From positions 62,001 to 126,000 of the forward strand of contig JAKQOG010000178.1 of the NCBI GenBank assembly GCA_029565395.1: 64,000 bases of DNA, written 5' to 3'. This DNA is from Candidatus Hydrogenedentota bacterium (GTDB lineage Bacteria; Hydrogenedentota; Hydrogenedentia; Hydrogenedentales; CAILVY01). The notes under the pieces were generated by a model. It had not been told where the DNA came from and made no database searches. It saw nothing but the letters and a program-made list of their open reading frames with translations. The position numbers were made by a program, and so were the translations under genes. How positions within the stretch are numbered: position 1 is the stretch's first letter; each line of letters starts with the position of its first letter. Shown piece by piece: positions 28,923-37,428 of this stretch.

Positions 28923-30278
28923 TCAGAAGAACGTAAGGTAACGTTCCTGGCGGATCTGGCGTATAAGATACACCGCCAGCTCCATCGTATGGTAATCGCC
29001 CCACAACGACGACTCGCCCTGCGGCGCCTGATGTCCTTTGGGAACATAATCCCAGCCATTCGGCCGGTGATATACCGAATGCAGCAACAAGCCTTGATGC
29101 TTGGGTTCTACCGAAAGATACGGCGGCGAAAATAGAGTCTTCGCCACAGTCAGCCCCGCCTGCCAGTACCGTTTTCCGCCACGCGTCAGTACGTGGCCCA
29201 ATCGCAACAAACCCTGCGCGGCGATGGCGGCCGCGGAACTGTCCACCGGTTCGTAGAGGTTATCCGGCTCCGAAGGCCTCGATTGGTAATCGCCCAGCGC
29301 TGCCACGCCTGGGGCGCCCGTATCCCAGAACGGAATCCCGTCCGACGCGGTATTTTCAATAAAGAAATCCGCGGTAGACAACGCGCCTTCCATCAATAAC
29401 TCATGAAACTGCCCCTCTGTATCAAACGGTTTCCACGCCGAGGCGGGTGTTGCCGCAAAAAACTCCAATTGCTCCGCACATCCCAGCAATACCCACGCGA
29501 GGCCACGCGTCCAGGTGCTGAAGGGGGAATAGCCCTGCTGCGTACTGGGACAACGGTACCGCCCATCGGTTGTGTTGAAGATACCCTCGTGCGCCACGCG
29601 CCCCCGTACATCATACGCATCGCGTCCCGCGCCATAATAGACATTGAACTTGAGCGTATTGCAGATGTGCTGCATGGCGCGGTCAAGCAGGGAAATCCGC
29701 CGGTCATTTTCACTCATGAGCATATGCCCCAGCCGATCCGCCACCACCAGCGACCGGCACGACCGGATCGTGTCGCTGAACAGTGAATGCGGACCATTGA
29801 AGGAGTGAATAAACCCCGTGCCGTCGAGAAGCGTAGTCCACCGCGCCGCCTGCACCGCCCCCGACACCTTCAATGCAATTTCATAGGCCTGCACGAGATC
29901 CGCACTGTCGGAACTTTTGCCCTCCAGAGCCAGCCGCCTCAAATTCCCATACGTGGAAATATTATTGAAGCCATGATCATGCACTCCGGTGTGGCTGAGA
30001 TGCGGGGCCATGCGCTCCAGCGTATTCCGACGGCCCAACTCCAGCATCGCCTCGTCCCCCGTGGCATCAAACTGCAAAATCTGGCACCCATACTGAAATC
30101 CCTGCGTCCATTCCGTCCATCCCCGCGTCGTATACGTCCCCTTGCGCGTAAACACCGGCGTCCCCTTCGCCGGGTCCCACGCCTTATCCAACAAACGGAT
30201 TTTTTTCGCCGAAAGCGCAAAAAACCGGTTGAGCAAAGGGCTTAAGTCATTGATTTTCAATCGGTTATCTATATTCAT
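28923..30278 (-). CDS. GH88-like glycoside hydrolase
   Basis: A 451-residue (alpha/alpha)6-barrel protein like unsaturated glucuronyl hydrolases. Supporting blocks are GWTEWTQGFQYGCQILQFDA (substrate tunnel), VHDHGFNNISTYG with the conserved Asp, QQGYSPFSTWTRGLAWVLLG, the EPVDSSAAAIAAQGLLRLG core and GDYHTMELAVYLI at the end. No signal peptide, so it probably works on imported unsaturated uronate oligosaccharides in the cytoplasm. Its ATG overlaps the hsdR stop (ATGA), so it sits at the downstream end of the defence operon, an odd partnership. Nearby secreted proteins do not suggest a polysaccharide locus. Confidence 0.7.
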   Translation of the reverse strand: MNIDNRLKINDLSPLLNRFFALSAKKIRLLDKAWDPAKGTPVFTRKGTYTTRGWTEWTQGFQYGCQILQFDATGDEAMLELGRRNTLERMAPHLSHTGVHDHGFNNISTYGNLRRLALEGKSSDSADLVQAYEIALKVSGAVQAARWTTLLDGTGFIHSFNGPHSLFSDTIRSCRSLVVADRLGHMLMSENDRRISLLDRAMQHICNTLKFNVYYGAGRDAYDVRGRVAHEGIFNTTDGRYRCPSTQQGYSPFSTWTRGLAWVLLGCAEQLEFFAATPASAWKPFDTEGQFHELLMEGALSTADFFIENTASDGIPFWDTGAPGVAALGDYQSRPSEPDNLYEPVDSSAAAIAAQGLLRLGHVLTRGGKRYWQAGLTVAKTLFSPPYLSVEPKHQGLLLHSVYHRPNGWDYVPKGHQAPQGESSLWGDYHTMELAVYLIRQIRQERYLTFF

Positions 30279-33200
30279 GGTTTACCTTGGGTTGCACTTA
30301 CAGGAATATGATACGAATTCTGAGAGCTGGGTTCGCCTCTCAGCTTGTGGTATGCCTCGGATGCGAGCCATGTGGTGACCACTTGCTGGAATGCCTTGTC
30401 GTTCATGAAACGGGCAAAGATATCTTCATTCTGATCCATGCGTTCTACGAATAAGGTCTCAAGCAGGTTTTTGAAAACTAACTCGAATTTGTCGCCAGGA
30501 TTAACCGCCGCCGCCTCTTTCAACGACTCATCCGTAATCGCTGCCTCGACAATTTGATCAAAGAAAAGTTGGTCAGCCTGATTAAAATCAGTTCCAAACC
30601 TTTCATTCACAAGATCTATTAAACGTGACAATAGTACTGGTTCCTCCCGTACCATGCCGCTACCCAACTCTGTCGGACCATCCAAGGGCCTGCCCACGCC
30701 CTCCTTAAGGCTGATAGACCCCTCACTGATCTTTTGTAAACGGTAATATTCCAGCCGAACCTCGTTATCAAAGTCGTAATCGGGTCCATTTTTCCGGCGC
30801 GGGAGTTTTGCAGCAAGATGCCGAAGAAACACATAGAGTTTTTCTAGGTCTGAATCCTGATATGGAATAACCTGACTGAGAAACCCGTAAAGGTTACGGA
30901 AGGCTTGAGTCTTCCTGCGCCAAAGTTCAGCTTCATCCTCGTTCTCTTCCAGAAGATGTTTGAAGCGTTCAACCGCAGGATCGAGCACCGCGTTCATGGC
31001 CTCATGATCCGCCGCGCTTTGGCGCTGCCGGGGCTTGAAGTAGATCTCGCAGAATCGCTGTTCTTCTTCGGCAAGATAAATGCCAGAACTGTCCAATTCG
31101 CCTTTGATCTGGTACATCCGCGCCGGGTCCACCTGTTCGCCCATTTGTGCGCCCGCGTAGTAGACCTTGAACGCTTCGCGGATCTCCTCGGGGTCGTTAA
31201 CGAAATCAAGTATGAAGGTGTCTTCCTTAAGCGGATGGGTTCGGTTCAGGCGCGACAGTGTCTGAACCGCTTGCAGGCCCGCGAGCCGCTTATCCACATA
31301 CATCGTATGCAGCAATGGTTGATCAAATCCGGTCTGATATTTCTCAGCAACCAAAAGGACCTGGTATTCGGCTGTAGCGAATTTCTCGGGCAATTCCTTT
31401 TCTTTTACACCATTATTCATACTTACTTCGGTGTAAGTCATTTTGGGCAATTTATCATCCTGCACAGTGCCAGAGAAGGCCACTAGCGTCTTGATAGCGT
31501 AACCTTTTTTCTTGATGTAACGATCGAAGCTTTGCTTGTAACGCACCGCCTCCAGCCGCGAACCGGTCACTACCATTGCTTTGGCTCTTCCGCCTATCTT
31601 GTGCCGGGTAACGGCGTTGAAGTGTTCCACCATTATTTCGGTCTTCTGCGCAATATTGTGCGGATGCAGTCTAATAAACCGATTCAGGGCCTTTGCGGCT
31701 TTTTTACGCTCAACGTTGGGATCATCCTCGCAGGCTTTGAGCAGCTTGATGTAGGTGGCATAGGTTGTGTAGTTTTTCAGCACATCAAGAATGAAATTTT
31801 CATCAATGGCTTGCTGCATAGTGTAACGGTGGAAAGGATCGCCGTTACGTCCAAAAACCGCCAAGGTCTTGTGCTTTGGCGTCGCCGTGAATGCAAAAAA
31901 GCTAATATTGGCTTGCCGTCCCCGCTTGGCCATGCTTCGGAACAACTCCTCTAAGTGTTCCTGCCCGTCTTCGGCGGCCTTGCGTTTGGCTGCCTCCAGC
32001 AACGCCTCTCCGCCCAATACCTCTTTGAGGTCGGTCGCCGATTCGCCACCTTGTGAACTGTGGGCCTCATCAATAATTACCGCGCAACGCCGGGTCGGCA
32101 ACGTGCCAGTGCCGTTCTTGCCCCGCTCTTCCGCCATCTTGAGTAACTGCTGAGAGACGAACGGGAATTTTTGGAGCGTCGTAATGATGATGGGGACCGC
32201 ATTTTCCAGCGCTTCCGCCAGTTGGCGTGAATGTTCATCAATTTTCTGTACCACGCCGCGTTTGTGTTCGAATTGATAGATCGTATCCTGCAATTGCTGG
32301 TCCAGAACGATTCGATCCGTAATGACAATCACCGAATCAAAGACACGTTGATTTTCGGTGTTGTGCAGTGAGGCTAAGCGGTGAGCCACCCAGCCGATGG
32401 TATTGCTCTTGCCGCTGCCCGCGGAATGCTCTACAAGGTAATTATTTCCCACCCCCTCACTCCGCGCGGCTTCCACCAGTGTACGGACCGCTTGAAGCTG
32501 ATGGTATCGCGGAAAGATCATGGTCTCCTTCTTAACCTTCCTCCCGTCATCTGTACGCTTCTCTTCTATCTGCAAATGGAGAAAGCGGGCCAGCAGGTCA
32601 AGCAGGCTGTCCCGTTGGAGGACTTCTTCCCAAAGATAGGCTGTGCGATAGGTCCGGCCAGCCGGATCGGGCGGGTTGCCCGCCCCGCCATCACAACCCT
32701 TGTTAAACGGCAGGAAGTGTGTGGCCGTCCCCGCCAGGCGCGTTGTCATGAAAACCGCTTCGGTATCCACCGCGAAATGCACCAGCGTGCGCCGTTTGAA
32801 CTCAAAAATGGTCTCGCGCGGATCACGATCACGGCGGTATTGCCACAGGGCGTTCTCAATGGTTTGGCCGGTCAGTGGGTTCTTCAATTCCGCCGTGACT
32901 ATCGGAATGCCGTTCAGACTTAAGACGACGTCGAGGGACTGTTCCGAACGCGGAGAGAAATGCAATTGCCGGGTAATCCCAACCCGGTTGGCGGCATAAC
33001 GCTCCTCCAATTCAGGATTTAATTCATGTGCGGCCTTAAAGGAAGCCACGCGCAACGTCCGGCCATAGCACTTGAACCCGTGCCGCAACGTGGCCAGCGA
33101 TCCATTCGCGTCCATCCACTTGCACAGATCTGTCAGCACCTGCTCGCCGGTGTTCGTCCCGTGCAATGCTTCCAGCTTCGCCCATTCCTTCGGTTGGGTG

Positions 33201-33346
33201 TCGCGGATGAACGACAAAACCATTTCGGGAAACACAGCCCGTTCACGGTCAAAACCATCCGGTGTCACGCTGACGTAGCCGTGTGCCAGTAAGCACGACT
33301 CAATGACAGCCTCAAAACTCTTTTCGGTCGTTTCAGCCATAACCAT
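30275..33346 (-). CDS. hsdR: type I restriction enzyme, R subunit
   Basis: About 1023 residues. The N-terminal nuclease carries TAELKNPLTGQTIENALW, a PD-(D/E)xK-type site. The SF2 translocase follows: HSAGSGKSNTIGWVAHRL (Walker A), IVITDRIVLDQQLQ, VIIDEAHSSQGG (DEAH box) and FFAFTATPKHKTL, with later helicase motifs including QTLSRLNR. All motors and the nuclease look intact. The frame begins at 33409 with GTG; I prefer MVMAETTEKSF because family proteins start near that helix, but no ribosome-binding site decides it. An ATCAAATAAG element overlaps the start. R, S and a fragment of M share the same strand. Confidence 0.92.
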   Translation of the reverse strand: MVMAETTEKSFEAVIESCLLAHGYVSVTPDGFDRERAVFPEMVLSFIRDTQPKEWAKLEALHGTNTGEQVLTDLCKWMDANGSLATLRHGFKCYGRTLRVASFKAAHELNPELEERYAANRVGITRQLHFSPRSEQSLDVVLSLNGIPIVTAELKNPLTGQTIENALWQYRRDRDPRETIFEFKRRTLVHFAVDTEAVFMTTRLAGTATHFLPFNKGCDGGAGNPPDPAGRTYRTAYLWEEVLQRDSLLDLLARFLHLQIEEKRTDDGRKVKKETMIFPRYHQLQAVRTLVEAARSEGVGNNYLVEHSAGSGKSNTIGWVAHRLASLHNTENQRVFDSVIVITDRIVLDQQLQDTIYQFEHKRGVVQKIDEHSRQLAEALENAVPIIITTLQKFPFVSQQLLKMAEERGKNGTGTLPTRRCAVIIDEAHSSQGGESATDLKEVLGGEALLEAAKRKAAEDGQEHLEELFRSMAKRGRQANISFFAFTATPKHKTLAVFGRNGDPFHRYTMQQAIDENFILDVLKNYTTYATYIKLLKACEDDPNVERKKAAKALNRFIRLHPHNIAQKTEIMVEHFNAVTRHKIGGRAKAMVVTGSRLEAVRYKQSFDRYIKKKGYAIKTLVAFSGTVQDDKLPKMTYTEVSMNNGVKEKELPEKFATAEYQVLLVAEKYQTGFDQPLLHTMYVDKRLAGLQAVQTLSRLNRTHPLKEDTFILDFVNDPEEIREAFKVYYAGAQMGEQVDPARMYQIKGELDSSGIYLAEEEQRFCEIYFKPRQRQSAADHEAMNAVLDPAVERFKHLLEENEDEAELWRRKTQAFRNLYGFLSQVIPYQDSDLEKLYVFLRHLAAKLPRRKNGPDYDFDNEVRLEYYRLQKISEGSISLKEGVGRPLDGPTELGSGMVREEPVLLSRLIDLVNERFGTDFNQADQLFFDQIVEAAITDESLKEAAAVNPGDKFELVFKNLLETLFVERMDQNEDIFARFMNDKAFQQVVTTWLASEAYHKLRGEPSSQNSYHIPVSATQGKP

Positions 33347-33524
33347 CAAATAAGATTTTGGCGGACAGATTTTCATAAGTGCTTTTATATCAAGGGTTAC
33401 TACAACCACTCAGGTACTACATAGCGGCCAGGTTTCCCTTCTGATCAAATAAGTATCAAATAAGCGTTCCGAGCTCACCATACCCACAAGAAAACCGATA
33501 TTGAACATTTCTCACAAGTTAGGT

Positions 33525-34301
33525 TTATGCTGCTTGAGCCAAAACACGCCCAAATTCATCTGGAGCAGACCAACGGACAACTTCCGATAATGGTTCCACC
33601 AACCGGAAATCCTCGTCCGACCAGACATCCGCCGTATCGTCGAAGAGTGAAACACAATGCAGCCCTTCGGGACCAGCGGTCAACTGATTAAGATCGTACC
33701 ACGCTGTGAGCACATGCTCGACAATCGGCCTCGACGCGGAACGGCTCCCAGTGGTCAGGACATAGACCAGAGAACTTCGCGCGGGAACACGTACGTGGAA
33801 ATCCGGCGTCCATATTTTGCCGGAGCGGCCAACAAGCCGCTCGCCCCGCTCATACGGAAAACTCCGTTCCGTGAGAAAATCGGCCACTTCATCCACAACC
33901 GATTGTACTGCACGATTCCGGAAACTGAACCAAAGGTCAGCGACACGCAAAGCCGCTTGGGCGAGTCGCATGACTGCAGGGGCGTATTCCGGCATCGAGG
34001 AACATCGAACTACCAACATGCCCTTGAAAAACTCCACGCCATGGTTTAGGGCAACATCTTCAATAATGGCCTGTTGCTTCGGAGATCGTTTGGGTGATAG
34101 AGACTGCATCCGCAACCAACGCAACGTTTCGCCCAGATCGGTGATAGTCCAAACACCGCCGGTTTGTTTGGCGAAAAGGTCAATACTGTCTCCGTCGGGA
34201 TATAGGAAAGGCGTCCGAATGCGCTGATAGTCCCCATGAGGGGAGCATTCAAACAACGCACCCAGCGTTTGTATCCATGGACCACAGGAGGCGTTTGTCA
34301 T
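33525..34301 (-). CDS. DUF1828/DUF1829-type protein in the defence island
   Basis: A 258-residue protein. Residues ~10-100 match the DUF1828 pattern: RIRTPFLYPDGDSIDLFAKQ, then GGVWTITDLGETLRWLRMQS. The C-terminal half resembles DUF1829 (VDEVADFLTERSFPY; SLVYVLTTGSRSA). Function unknown; such proteins occur with phage and restriction genes. GGAG lies eight bases before the ATG at 34301 (an ATG two codons earlier is too close to it). It overlaps the upstream DUF6978-like gene by four bases, indicating a two-gene unit inserted between hsdS and hsdR. Confidence 0.7.
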   Translation of the reverse strand: MTNASCGPWIQTLGALFECSPHGDYQRIRTPFLYPDGDSIDLFAKQTGGVWTITDLGETLRWLRMQSLSPKRSPKQQAIIEDVALNHGVEFFKGMLVVRCSSMPEYAPAVMRLAQAALRVADLWFSFRNRAVQSVVDEVADFLTERSFPYERGERLVGRSGKIWTPDFHVRVPARSSLVYVLTTGSRSASRPIVEHVLTAWYDLNQLTAGPEGLHCVSLFDDTADVWSDEDFRLVEPLSEVVRWSAPDEFGRVLAQAA

Positions 34302-34756
34302 ATCCATATCTCCGTTTGAACTGAAGGGGGCTGAGCGAGTGTTCCGGCATGTTGAATCGACGCCTCTTTACAGAATTGCCGCCAGACCATCACCGGATCC
34401 GCCACATCGGCGGTAATGTCATCCGGAACATACGCATGCTTGTCACGATACGTGTCGGTCCATTTGTGCTTATGGGTTTCGCCAACGTGCTGACACGTGG
34501 GATTATGATGTTCCTTGCCAAGGTCTAAACCGTAAATCCGGCCATCGCTCTTCAAGATGAGCATATAACTCAATGTCTGCGCCAACCGGTTGTAACTCCC
34601 CCGGACAAATAATGGATACCCCGGCCCCGATATCACCTCGGCGCGGAATTCAACACTCGGCGAGTGATCTTCGTCATCCATCCATTCAATATCACCTTCA
34701 ATATATTTGGTTGTATCGGACAGGATGGCTTCAAACTCCGTATTTGTTAATGCCAT
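34298..34756 (-). CDS. DUF6978-like protein in the defence island
   Basis: About 152 residues. Recognisable blocks are YPLFVRGSYNRLAQTLSYML, RIYGLDLGKEHHNPTCQHVG, HKHKWTDTYRDKHAYVPDDI and VWRQFCKEASIQHAG, which I associate with DUF6978. The conserved His and Cys residues (HHNPTC, HKHKW) hint at a metal or nuclease site. AAGGG precedes the ATG at 34756. It ends inside the start of the DUF1828 gene, and the pair is transcribed with hsdS and hsdR. Could be a toxin-antitoxin-like or anti-restriction module. Confidence 0.6.
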   Translation of the reverse strand: MALTNTEFEAILSDTTKYIEGDIEWMDDEDHSPSVEFRAEVISGPGYPLFVRGSYNRLAQTLSYMLILKSDGRIYGLDLGKEHHNPTCQHVGETHKHKWTDTYRDKHAYVPDDITADVADPVMVWRQFCKEASIQHAGTLAQPPSVQTEIWI

Positions 34757-34791
34757 ACTCCTTACCCTTTCTTCCGCCCGCACAAGCAGGA

Positions 34792-35970
34792 TTATACGAT
34801 TTCGTCCATACGCACCATATCGATTCTACCACAGACCGCCTCGGAAATCAGCGCCGCCCGCCGCTCTCTCAATAACGCAATGGTCCGCTCTGCCGCAGAG
34901 CGTAACGCATCCAGTCTGCCTGTCTCACGCTCGATGTGTGCCACGATGGCTTGCTGTTCCGAAAGCGGCGGTACAGGCATCATGATTTCGTAGAGCCCTT
35001 CGGGATAAAGACGAAGTCTTGAGGACCATACGCCCTTCGAATATCGCGTTGCTTCCTTGGCAAAGTCCGGGATGCGAACCAATGCGTCAACATAACGCGG
35101 ATCAAAACGGCCGCAGGGCGAGTAAACATTGTAGGCAGGGCTGACGATGCCGTGTACTGGGGAAACACCCATTGCCCCCATCCATGCCCAAAGCGTGTTG
35201 ATGACAAGATCATTTTTGTGGCAGATCTTATATCCTTCAGTCGTTTCGGCCTCGAACATGTTTACGTCTTTTTCGGAACGCGGTGTGACCCCCGTGAGGT
35301 GTGAAACGGTGAGCAGTTCCTCGTCTCCCGTTTCCGAACGCTCATCACGTTCACGGAAGAGCCAGCGGGCGCGCTCTGTCTCCCAATGCTTCGGGATTTG
35401 TCCGAGCCAGGGGATGCCGGAATCGCGGAGGGGTGCATTGGGATTCAGGCCGCGGGTGACGGCTTGGGTGATGAGCGCGCGGCGCTTTTCTGCCAATAAA
35501 TCCAACCACCGTTCCTTTGCCCCTACCAACGCATCCAGCCGCCCCGTCTCCCGGTCCAGATAATCGGCTATCGCGCGTTGCTCGGGAATCGATGGAACGG
35601 ATACTGTCATCTCATAAGCAGACTCACGATTCAAGCCAGGGACAGCCGCTTCATCGGAGCCTTCATCAAGCCGAAGAGTCTGGAGAAGCCAGTAGATCCA
35701 CCGCAGCTCGTGTTGTGTAACGGTTTCATCGACATAGAATGTAGTATCGGAAGCAAAACAAGCGGTAGAACTCCAATTCACTTTTCCGTAGGAGCCTTTC
35801 CGCCCGATCACAAGCGCTGGGGCTGCCGTGTTGGAGATCGAATGAACCGCATAGGGACCATTTGATCCATACACCGGTACCTCTCCGGATGATTCCCGGT
35901 CAGGAGGCAGAGTATCGCCATAGGCAAAGCGCGCAACATACTTCAATTTGGACTTTTGCCATATCTTCAT
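34792..35970 (-). CDS. hsdS: type I restriction enzyme, S subunit
   Basis: About 392 residues with two target-recognition domains, each followed by the conserved spacer helix: first EQRAIADYLDRETGRLDALV then EKRRALITQAVTRGLNP, later EQQAIVAHIERETGRLDALR then RERRAALISEAVCGRID. PLRDSGIPWLGQIPKHW is the central conserved region before the second domain. This gives a bipartite DNA target of unknown sequence. GAGGTG six bases before the ATG at 35970 marks the start. Complete and likely able to bind M subunits, were a full one present. Confidence 0.92.
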   Translation of the reverse strand: MKIWQKSKLKYVARFAYGDTLPPDRESSGEVPVYGSNGPYAVHSISNTAAPALVIGRKGSYGKVNWSSTACFASDTTFYVDETVTQHELRWIYWLLQTLRLDEGSDEAAVPGLNRESAYEMTVSVPSIPEQRAIADYLDRETGRLDALVGAKERWLDLLAEKRRALITQAVTRGLNPNAPLRDSGIPWLGQIPKHWETERARWLFRERDERSETGDEELLTVSHLTGVTPRSEKDVNMFEAETTEGYKICHKNDLVINTLWAWMGAMGVSPVHGIVSPAYNVYSPCGRFDPRYVDALVRIPDFAKEATRYSKGVWSSRLRLYPEGLYEIMMPVPPLSEQQAIVAHIERETGRLDALRSAAERTIALLRERRAALISEAVCGRIDMVRMDEIV

Positions 35971-36046
35971 TCGCCCACCTCTCGTACCGCCGGTCGGCAT
36001 GCGCGTTTTATTTCACGACAAGCCGCGGAGCCGCCAAGAGCTTTCC

Positions 36047-37132
36047 TCATGGCTTCCCCTTTTGCGTCTTGGCGCCTTTGCGTGCGGTTGCTTTTTTCTT
36101 CGCCTTTCTCTCGGTTTCCAATTTTTCCGCCGAGTTACGGAGGTCGTCCAGATAGCGCTTTTCCGCTGCCGCCTCCGCTTCCAAGCGGCGGCGTCCCGCA
36201 AAGGCATCATACTGTTCGTTTGCCCAAACGAGTGCCTGTTCCCTGCTGACAGTTCCCGCATTCTCCAATACAGGAAGCTCAGTATCGCGCAGAAATTTGT
36301 CGAGGAACATTTCCCAGTCGCGAATGCGGATATCCTGCCGTCGTTGAGATCGGAATTCGGCCTGGTCAAGGAACATGACCGTGATGCGGTTGAGCGTGTC
36401 GATTTCCTTTGCGTCCAGGTAGTTCTTCGCGGTGCTCACGTCGCGTTTGAGCACATGGCCGCCTTTCCAGGAGGTAAGGCCCATATTGGGCTTGGCCGCA
36501 TCGGCGCGATCACGGATGATTTCGGCGGCGGTCATCCCCGCAGCGGCATAGTGCATCTTGTTCTGCATGGCGGCGAAGAAGCGTTGTGTTTCCTGCTCGT
36601 CCTCAACGTAATCGCTGGCGAGCGCGAAAATGTCACGGATACGCTGGTAAACGCGGGCTTCGCTGGCACGAATCTCCCGTATGCGGGCCAGTAACTCGTC
36701 GAAGTAGTCCGCCAGCCCGCCGCCACCCTTCAGGCGTTCATCGTCCATCGTAAAGCCCTTGACGAGATATTCGCGCAGGCGTTCAGTGGCCCACTGCCGG
36801 AATTGCGTGCCCCGGGGCGAGCGCACGCGGTAGCCGATGGCGAGGATCATATCAAGGTTGTAGTGCTGCAAGCGGCGCGCGACGGAACGGTTCCCCTCAG
36901 TGCGAACTTGTAAGTATTCCTTACAAGTTGCCTCTCGTCCTAGTTCTCCTTCTTCGTAAATACTGCGAATATGGAGGGTTATGTTTTGCGGGGTGGTTTG
37001 ATACAATTCCGCTATCATGGATTGCGTCAGCCAGACGGTCTCGTTTTCGAGCAGGACCCGAATCCGGTTCAGACCATCTTCGGTCCGGTAAACAATAATC
37101 TCCCCGCCTGGCATTTCATGTGCATCGCTCAT
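36047..37132 (-). CDS. rhuM: RhuM-family protein
   Basis: A 361-residue RhuM (virulence protein RhuM/Fic-DOC type) protein. Conserved blocks are WLTQSMIAELYQTTPQNITL (helix-turn-helix-like), RRLQHYNLDMILAIGYRVRS and GTQFRQWATERLREYLVKGF, then a helical middle and a Lys/Ala-rich coiled tail. RhuM genes are common passengers of type I restriction loci; the role is unknown. Its ATG overlaps the stop of the hsdM fragment (ATGA), with GGAGG placed seven bases ahead inside the fragment. Confidence 0.85.
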   Translation of the reverse strand: MSDAHEMPGGEIIVYRTEDGLNRIRVLLENETVWLTQSMIAELYQTTPQNITLHIRSIYEEGELGREATCKEYLQVRTEGNRSVARRLQHYNLDMILAIGYRVRSPRGTQFRQWATERLREYLVKGFTMDDERLKGGGGLADYFDELLARIREIRASEARVYQRIRDIFALASDYVEDEQETQRFFAAMQNKMHYAAAGMTAAEIIRDRADAAKPNMGLTSWKGGHVLKRDVSTAKNYLDAKEIDTLNRITVMFLDQAEFRSQRRQDIRIRDWEMFLDKFLRDTELPVLENAGTVSREQALVWANEQYDAFAGRRRLEAEAAAEKRYLDDLRNSAEKLETERKAKKKATARKGAKTQKGKP

Positions 37133-37428
37133 TGCGTTACCTCCGGACCGCCTTTGAGCTTTTCAAATGTAAGGGATGTGTGGTTGTGGAATCGCTGCCC
37201 AGATGCTTTATTCAGCATTTTATCAAGCGCATCATCGGTGAGTTTCACCCCCATGCGCCTTGCCATCTCGGCCAGCACTTTCTCTTTTGTGGGTGCAAGA
37301 ACACAATCAAAACGGCGCAGCACCGTCATGGGCCGCATCACCCGTTCATATTGCGGTGGGCGATAGGGTCCTCGCAGCAACTCGGCAATTTGCCAAATTA
37401 AATTCGCATGATCATGATGACTAGCCAT
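37129..37428 (-). pseudogene. hsdM: hsdM N-terminal fragment (methylase domain missing)
   Basis: Encodes only 99 residues. HANLIWQIAELLRGPYRPPQ, YERVMRPMTVLRRFDCVLAP, SGQRFHNHTSLTFEKLK and the spacing between them match the N-terminal helical domain of type I M subunits up to about residue 90. A full subunit is ~480-520 residues with a SAM motif and NPPF; neither occurs anywhere in the operon. The frame closes at GGPEVTQ, where a GGAGG and the ATGA overlap with rhuM are exactly as expected at the end of an intact hsdM. AGGGA before the ATG shows that it is still translatable. Looks like an internal deletion. Confidence 0.8.

Follow-up and report, generated by a model that had tools for sequence, protein, structure and literature searches.

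An operon with a truncated hsdM

The window analysed here (that is, the whole 64,000-nt stretch from Candidatus Hydrogenedentota bacterium, assembly GCA_029565395.1, contig JAKQOG010000178.1, positions 62,001 to 126,000, forward strand) carries on its minus strand a type I restriction–modification (R-M) operon in the order hsdM stub–rhuM–hsdS–PDC-M24A–PDC-M24B–hsdR. The first gene (37129–37428, −) is, as originally predicted, an open frame of only 99 residues, comprising the N-terminal domain of HsdM (residues 1–95), the last four HsdM residues (EVTQ) and a stop codon, and its profile matches are confined to the N terminus of the subunit (Pfam HsdM_N, 2e-14, residues 9–92, profile positions 3–78 of 135; PADLOC MTase_I, positions 4–96 of 661). 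The stub runs into rhuM (36047–37132, −), an intact frame of 361 amino acids (Virulence_RhuM; PADLOC candidate PDC-S05), through an ATGA stop/start overlap (37129–37132, −), and the GGAGG Shine–Dalgarno motif for rhuM (37140–37144, −) lies inside the last codons of the stub, where it is encoded by the EVT codons; both signals had been read correctly in the original prediction.

The remaining R-M subunits look complete, as had also been claimed. The frame of hsdS (34792–36000, −; 402 amino acids) is open, and its product has the target recognition domains that a functional type I system requires (the PADLOC specificity-subunit model spans residues 14–398 and Pfam Methylase_S covers the first domain). 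The frame of hsdR (30275–33409, −; 1044 amino acids as listed, although the start is probably an internal Met, MVMAETTEK) is likewise open and encodes what is required of a type I HsdR in nuclease, motor and helical parts, with nuclease (LDVV...AELK), Walker A (AGSGKS) and DEAH motifs and HSDR_N, SWI2_SNF2, ResIII and T1R_D3-like domains; its score against the NCBIfam hsdR model is 202 bits, under the cut-off of 285. Along most of the protein, this HsdR shares 71–85% identity with HsdRs that stand beside an intact HsdM of the same family as the stub; it can thus be assigned as the nuclease of that family, and the missing partner is of a known and ordinary kind. What the locus lacks of a functional type I system is the SAM-binding and NPP(Y/F) catalytic domain of HsdM and the C-terminal tail through which HsdM binds HsdS, of which only EVTQ is left; no N6_Mtase domain was found in the operon proteins scanned with profiles, which bears out the earlier observation that neither a SAM motif nor NPPF occurs in the operon.

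Two small genes that were absent from the earlier account, a DUF6978 gene (34298–34783, −; PADLOC PDC-M24A) and a DUF1828 gene (33525–34307, −; PADLOC PDC-M24B), form a PADLOC candidate defence pair inside the operon (33525–34783, −); both frames are open, and from hsdR (30275–33409) up to the stub (37129–37428) hsdR, hsdS, rhuM and the pair are all without frame damage. Close relatives of the pair, 58–67% identical, also stand together (L099/L114 and L100/L115) in two further genomes of the phylum, with no recognisable R-M genes beside them in either genome (G024 and G007, the latter on a short contig). A fixed association of PDC-M24A/B with stub-type loci is therefore rejected; the pair rather resembles a self-contained module of two genes that was inserted in this operon. 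The place of rhuM also varies, being between hsdM and hsdS in the window and between hsdS and hsdR in four related operons (L040, L073, L082 and L084).

Anatomy of the deletion

A scan of one genome per species (84,980 bacterial and archaeal species) returned 313 relatives of the stub, of which the best 80 loci were fetched and 63 intact hsdM copies compared. Across these best 80 of 313, the first 96 residues of the stub are 67–82% identical to HsdM N termini, and most of the loci carry an HsdM of about 660–680 amino acids (intact copies, 651–700 amino acids; median 666; n = 63). The stub tracks intact HsdM through LKG(D/G)P, at residue 95, and then passes directly to EVTQ and the stop codon. 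The junction lies between codons 95 and 96 (37141–37146, −; CCG|GAG), with the LKGDP of intact HsdM to its left and the EVT-x C terminus to its right; EVT-x ends 50 of the 63 intact HsdMs, exactly EVTQ ends one, and the last four residues and stop of the stub match this C terminus. Given the N-terminal identity across 80 loci together with the C-terminal match, the stub is a remnant of HsdM and not a chance frame. The same correspondence is visible in the DNA: on the left, intact relatives read CTC AAA GGC GAT CCG GAC where the stub reads CTC AAA GGC GGT CCG, and on the right, CGG GAG GTG ACG CAA TGA corresponds to GAG GTA ACG CAA TGA in the stub (GAG GTG ACG CAA TGA in L047; GAG GTG ACN in the other relatives shown).

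Since an HsdM N terminus is thus joined in frame to the C-terminal codons of the same gene, the event, as read from sequence comparison, is an in-frame internal deletion of ~1.7 kb (about 567 codons, or ~85% of hsdM), in support of the clean internal deletion that had been proposed. The inferred microhomology at the junction is at most GGA (3 bp), and no long repeat is present. We considered frameshift or read-through as the cause and rejected both, as codon 95 is followed by the HsdM C terminus and no catalytic-domain sequence occurs at this locus or anywhere else in the genome. Because the rhuM ribosome-binding site and the start overlap are located in the retained last codons of hsdM, both survive: a Shine–Dalgarno-like motif lies within the last six codons of 56 of the 63 intact hsdM genes, and ATGA stands at the gene end in 30. 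As this HsdM family often encodes the Shine–Dalgarno motif of the next gene in its conserved EVT codons, a deletion that spares these codons need not be polar.

Comparison with related strains was a check that the original prediction had suggested. The intact HsdM family gives the anatomy of the deletion, but a close relative that has the locus intact did not turn up (it is lacking from G001, a genome of the same genus), and the pre-deletion state is accordingly read from relatives that are 67–82% identical to the stub.

Other HsdMs, other stubs and the state of the assembly

The genome assembly (7.5 Mb, 290 contigs, 93.5% complete, 4.16% contamination) was searched for a second hsdM, again as had been suggested, and both the stub and a full-length relative (P0002, at E up to 10) found only the stub locus in the whole genome. 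A genome-wide N6_Mtase search returned four genes. One is an HsdM–HsdS fusion of another type with two specificity domains of its own; apart from the hsdS of the window, these are the sole hsdS-type domains in the genome. The other three are long open frames (958–1057 amino acids) of other kinds; the nearest N6_Mtase gene on the same contig lies ~113 kb off (contig position 212455 versus 99132) and encodes a different protein. The fusion (L001:1105-3612, contig C108; 835 amino acids, N6_Mtase and two Methylase_S domains) adjoins a gene of 277 amino acids (L001:269-1102), and the two make up a second, different R-M locus in this genome.

We consider it very improbable that a second HsdM works in trans with the HsdS and HsdR of the window, as had been put forward originally. 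A precedent exists in Staphylococcus epidermidis, in which an orphan hsdS became active once a matching HsdM was supplied elsewhere (PMC6918075), and at 93.5% completeness such a gene could be missed. Against this, P0002 finds the stub alone, the four N6_Mtase genes are the fusion with its own specificity domains and three frames of other kinds, and the S. epidermidis HsdS variants function only with a specific HsdM (PMC6918075).

An artefact of assembly or strain mixture, in which the population has an intact hsdM and the assembler either joined the contig wrongly or followed a minority variant with the deletion, is unlikely, yet it is the main uncertainty over the deletion. The 290 contigs and 4.16% contamination leave room for a mixture of strains, and an unbinned alternative contig of ~1.7 kb would escape notice. 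However, the junction lies deep within a 233-kb contig, the join is exactly in frame and has no long repeat (only the ≤3 bp of inferred microhomology), no remainder of the HsdM of this locus was found in the assembly, and odd residues of the stub at invariant sites also fit a real, unconstrained remnant. In a leave-one-out count over 81 rows, the stub departs at two otherwise invariant positions (D16E and L32R); it is the sole row with two such departures, and 73 rows have none. Its N-terminal divergence relative to that of HsdR is also high (ratio of 1.21 versus a mean of 1.07, s.d. 0.10) but within range, as 3 of the 41 others reach a value as high as this. Together these features suggest, as modest evidence, that constraint on the stub has been relaxed since the deletion.

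The departures at invariant positions also count against a kept function of the stub, for example as a translational leader for rhuM–hsdS, as an M fragment with a regulatory or dominant-negative effect, or as part of a methylation-independent system, a set of readings that we regard as very improbable. The in-frame deletion does retain the Shine–Dalgarno motif and ATGA, which preserves translational coupling to rhuM, and the downstream genes are intact. An in-frame result nevertheless arises by chance in a third of cases, the tail that binds HsdS is absent (PMC9613975), and the same stub was seen in none of the best 80 of 313 loci, 68 phylum genomes, 8 viral contigs and 4 plasmids, so that there is no sign of the stub as a kept design; only truncations with other breakpoints came up. 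Truncated frames at seven loci (L008, L014, L040, L043, L054, L062 and L074) were dismissed as instances of the same stub because they break elsewhere, are frameshifted, contain stops or run into masked sequence, and an eighth locus (L113) because its match breaks off after 33 residues. Also very improbable, in our estimate, is the specific case in which selection keeps the 99 residues as a working part, such as a leader or M-domain adaptor in a non-methylating rhuM/HsdS/HsdR/PDC-M24 defence operon.

Probable consequences of HsdM loss and comparison with known systems

We conclude that the locus is probably an inactivated type I R-M operon, that is, an ordinary restriction-minus, modification-minus null allele, given that one essential subunit gene is disrupted relative to intact homologues while the rest remain recognisable. 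The undamaged frames of hsdR, hsdS, rhuM and M24A/B weigh against inactivation and would mean either that the deletion is recent or that selection still acts on part of this gene set. The ancestor would have had an ordinary HsdM of ~660–680 amino acids at the head of the operon, with rhuM, hsdS, PDC-M24A/B and hsdR behind it. By bringing codon 95 next to the final four hsdM codons, the deletion removed the catalytic domain (SAM-binding/NPPF) as well as the C-terminal tail by which HsdS is held; the kept ribosome-binding site and ATGA overlap would leave the downstream genes translatable. Judging from the type I enzymes that have been studied, loss of HsdM would leave no M2S core, such that HsdS could not bind DNA and HsdR would not be recruited, with no methylation, no restriction and no self-harm as the expected outcome; rhuM and PDC-M24A/B may still function independently.

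The original prediction had reasoned that an active nuclease without its own methylase should be harmful, which, by analogy with characterized enzymes, is an argument that fits type II systems and not type I. Type I HsdR docks via HsdM, and neither M alone nor S alone binds DNA (PMC3874165); the type I REase has no independent activity (PMC12707154). A 1,005-bp in-frame hsdM deletion in group A Streptococcus left growth normal (PMC8084154). In a separate study, knocking out hsdM increased transformation about 500-fold and growth was unaffected (PMC8597746). Raised transformation after such deletions amounts to relief of restriction (PMC8084154; PMC8597746). As an orphan type I HsdR would thus be inactive and hsdM deletions carry no growth cost, neither an M subunit in trans (for which no cognate was found) nor a new role or methylation-free mode, all raised in the original prediction, is needed. 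Tethering of HsdS by the stub, the example given there of a new role, is unlikely, as HsdM holds HsdS through the lost C-terminal tail, with the N-terminal domain in M–M contacts (PMC9613975).

Several of the best 80 of 313 loci have a broken hsdM of the same family with other hsd genes still recognisable, although assembly errors may account for a part of these cases too. Three (L008, L014 and L074) carry deletions in the hsd operon with breakpoints that differ from that of the window, and L008 and L014, unlike the window, have also lost most or all of hsdS; the deletions in L074 are internal to hsdM, and in L054 hsdM is broken by a frameshift. In L008 (5257-5925, +), HsdM residues 1–185 are fused in frame to an HsdS-like C terminus (222 amino acids in total), apparently by a deletion spanning hsdM and hsdS. 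In L014 (3707-4867, +), HsdM is cut near residue 310, after which the frame continues into sequence that is either foreign to HsdM or out of frame; hsdR, 81% identical to that of the window, follows directly and no hsdS was found at this locus. Two further proteins of ~900 amino acids, in which HsdM continues into an HsdS-like C terminus (L024:4224-6932, +; L078 from 9001, +), are probably natural M–S fusions of the same family.

The closest intact counterparts are type I operons with an HsdM of ~660–680 amino acids (L006, L010, L012 and L083 are examples), with HsdM N termini 72–79% and HsdRs 77–85% identical to those of the window and a related HsdS; most of their HsdMs end in EVT-x with Shine–Dalgarno-like codons, and they encode the whole catalytic domain and C-terminal tail that the window lost with its ~567 codons. 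Disrupted hsd loci are common (PMC3874165), and the deletion in the window is most likely of this common and harmless kind. The deletion engineered in strain 854 of group A Streptococcus is likewise internal to hsdM and in frame, leaves hsdR and hsdS in place, and weakened the restriction barrier at no cost to growth, but it was made in the laboratory, spans 1,005 bp and affects a different type I family (PMC8084154). The naturally broken type I locus of S. epidermidis ATCC 12228 similarly retains a complete hsdS without hsdM and is reported to be nonfunctional alone, its modification being revivable by a matching HsdM in trans; it differs in that hsdR is also truncated and in that hsdM is missing altogether, with no stub left (PMC6918075). 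Alongside these cases, the window would represent one more type I restriction operon decaying through the loss of a single subunit with the cell unharmed. In contrast to many nucleases of type II systems, those of type I should not become lethal after methylase loss.
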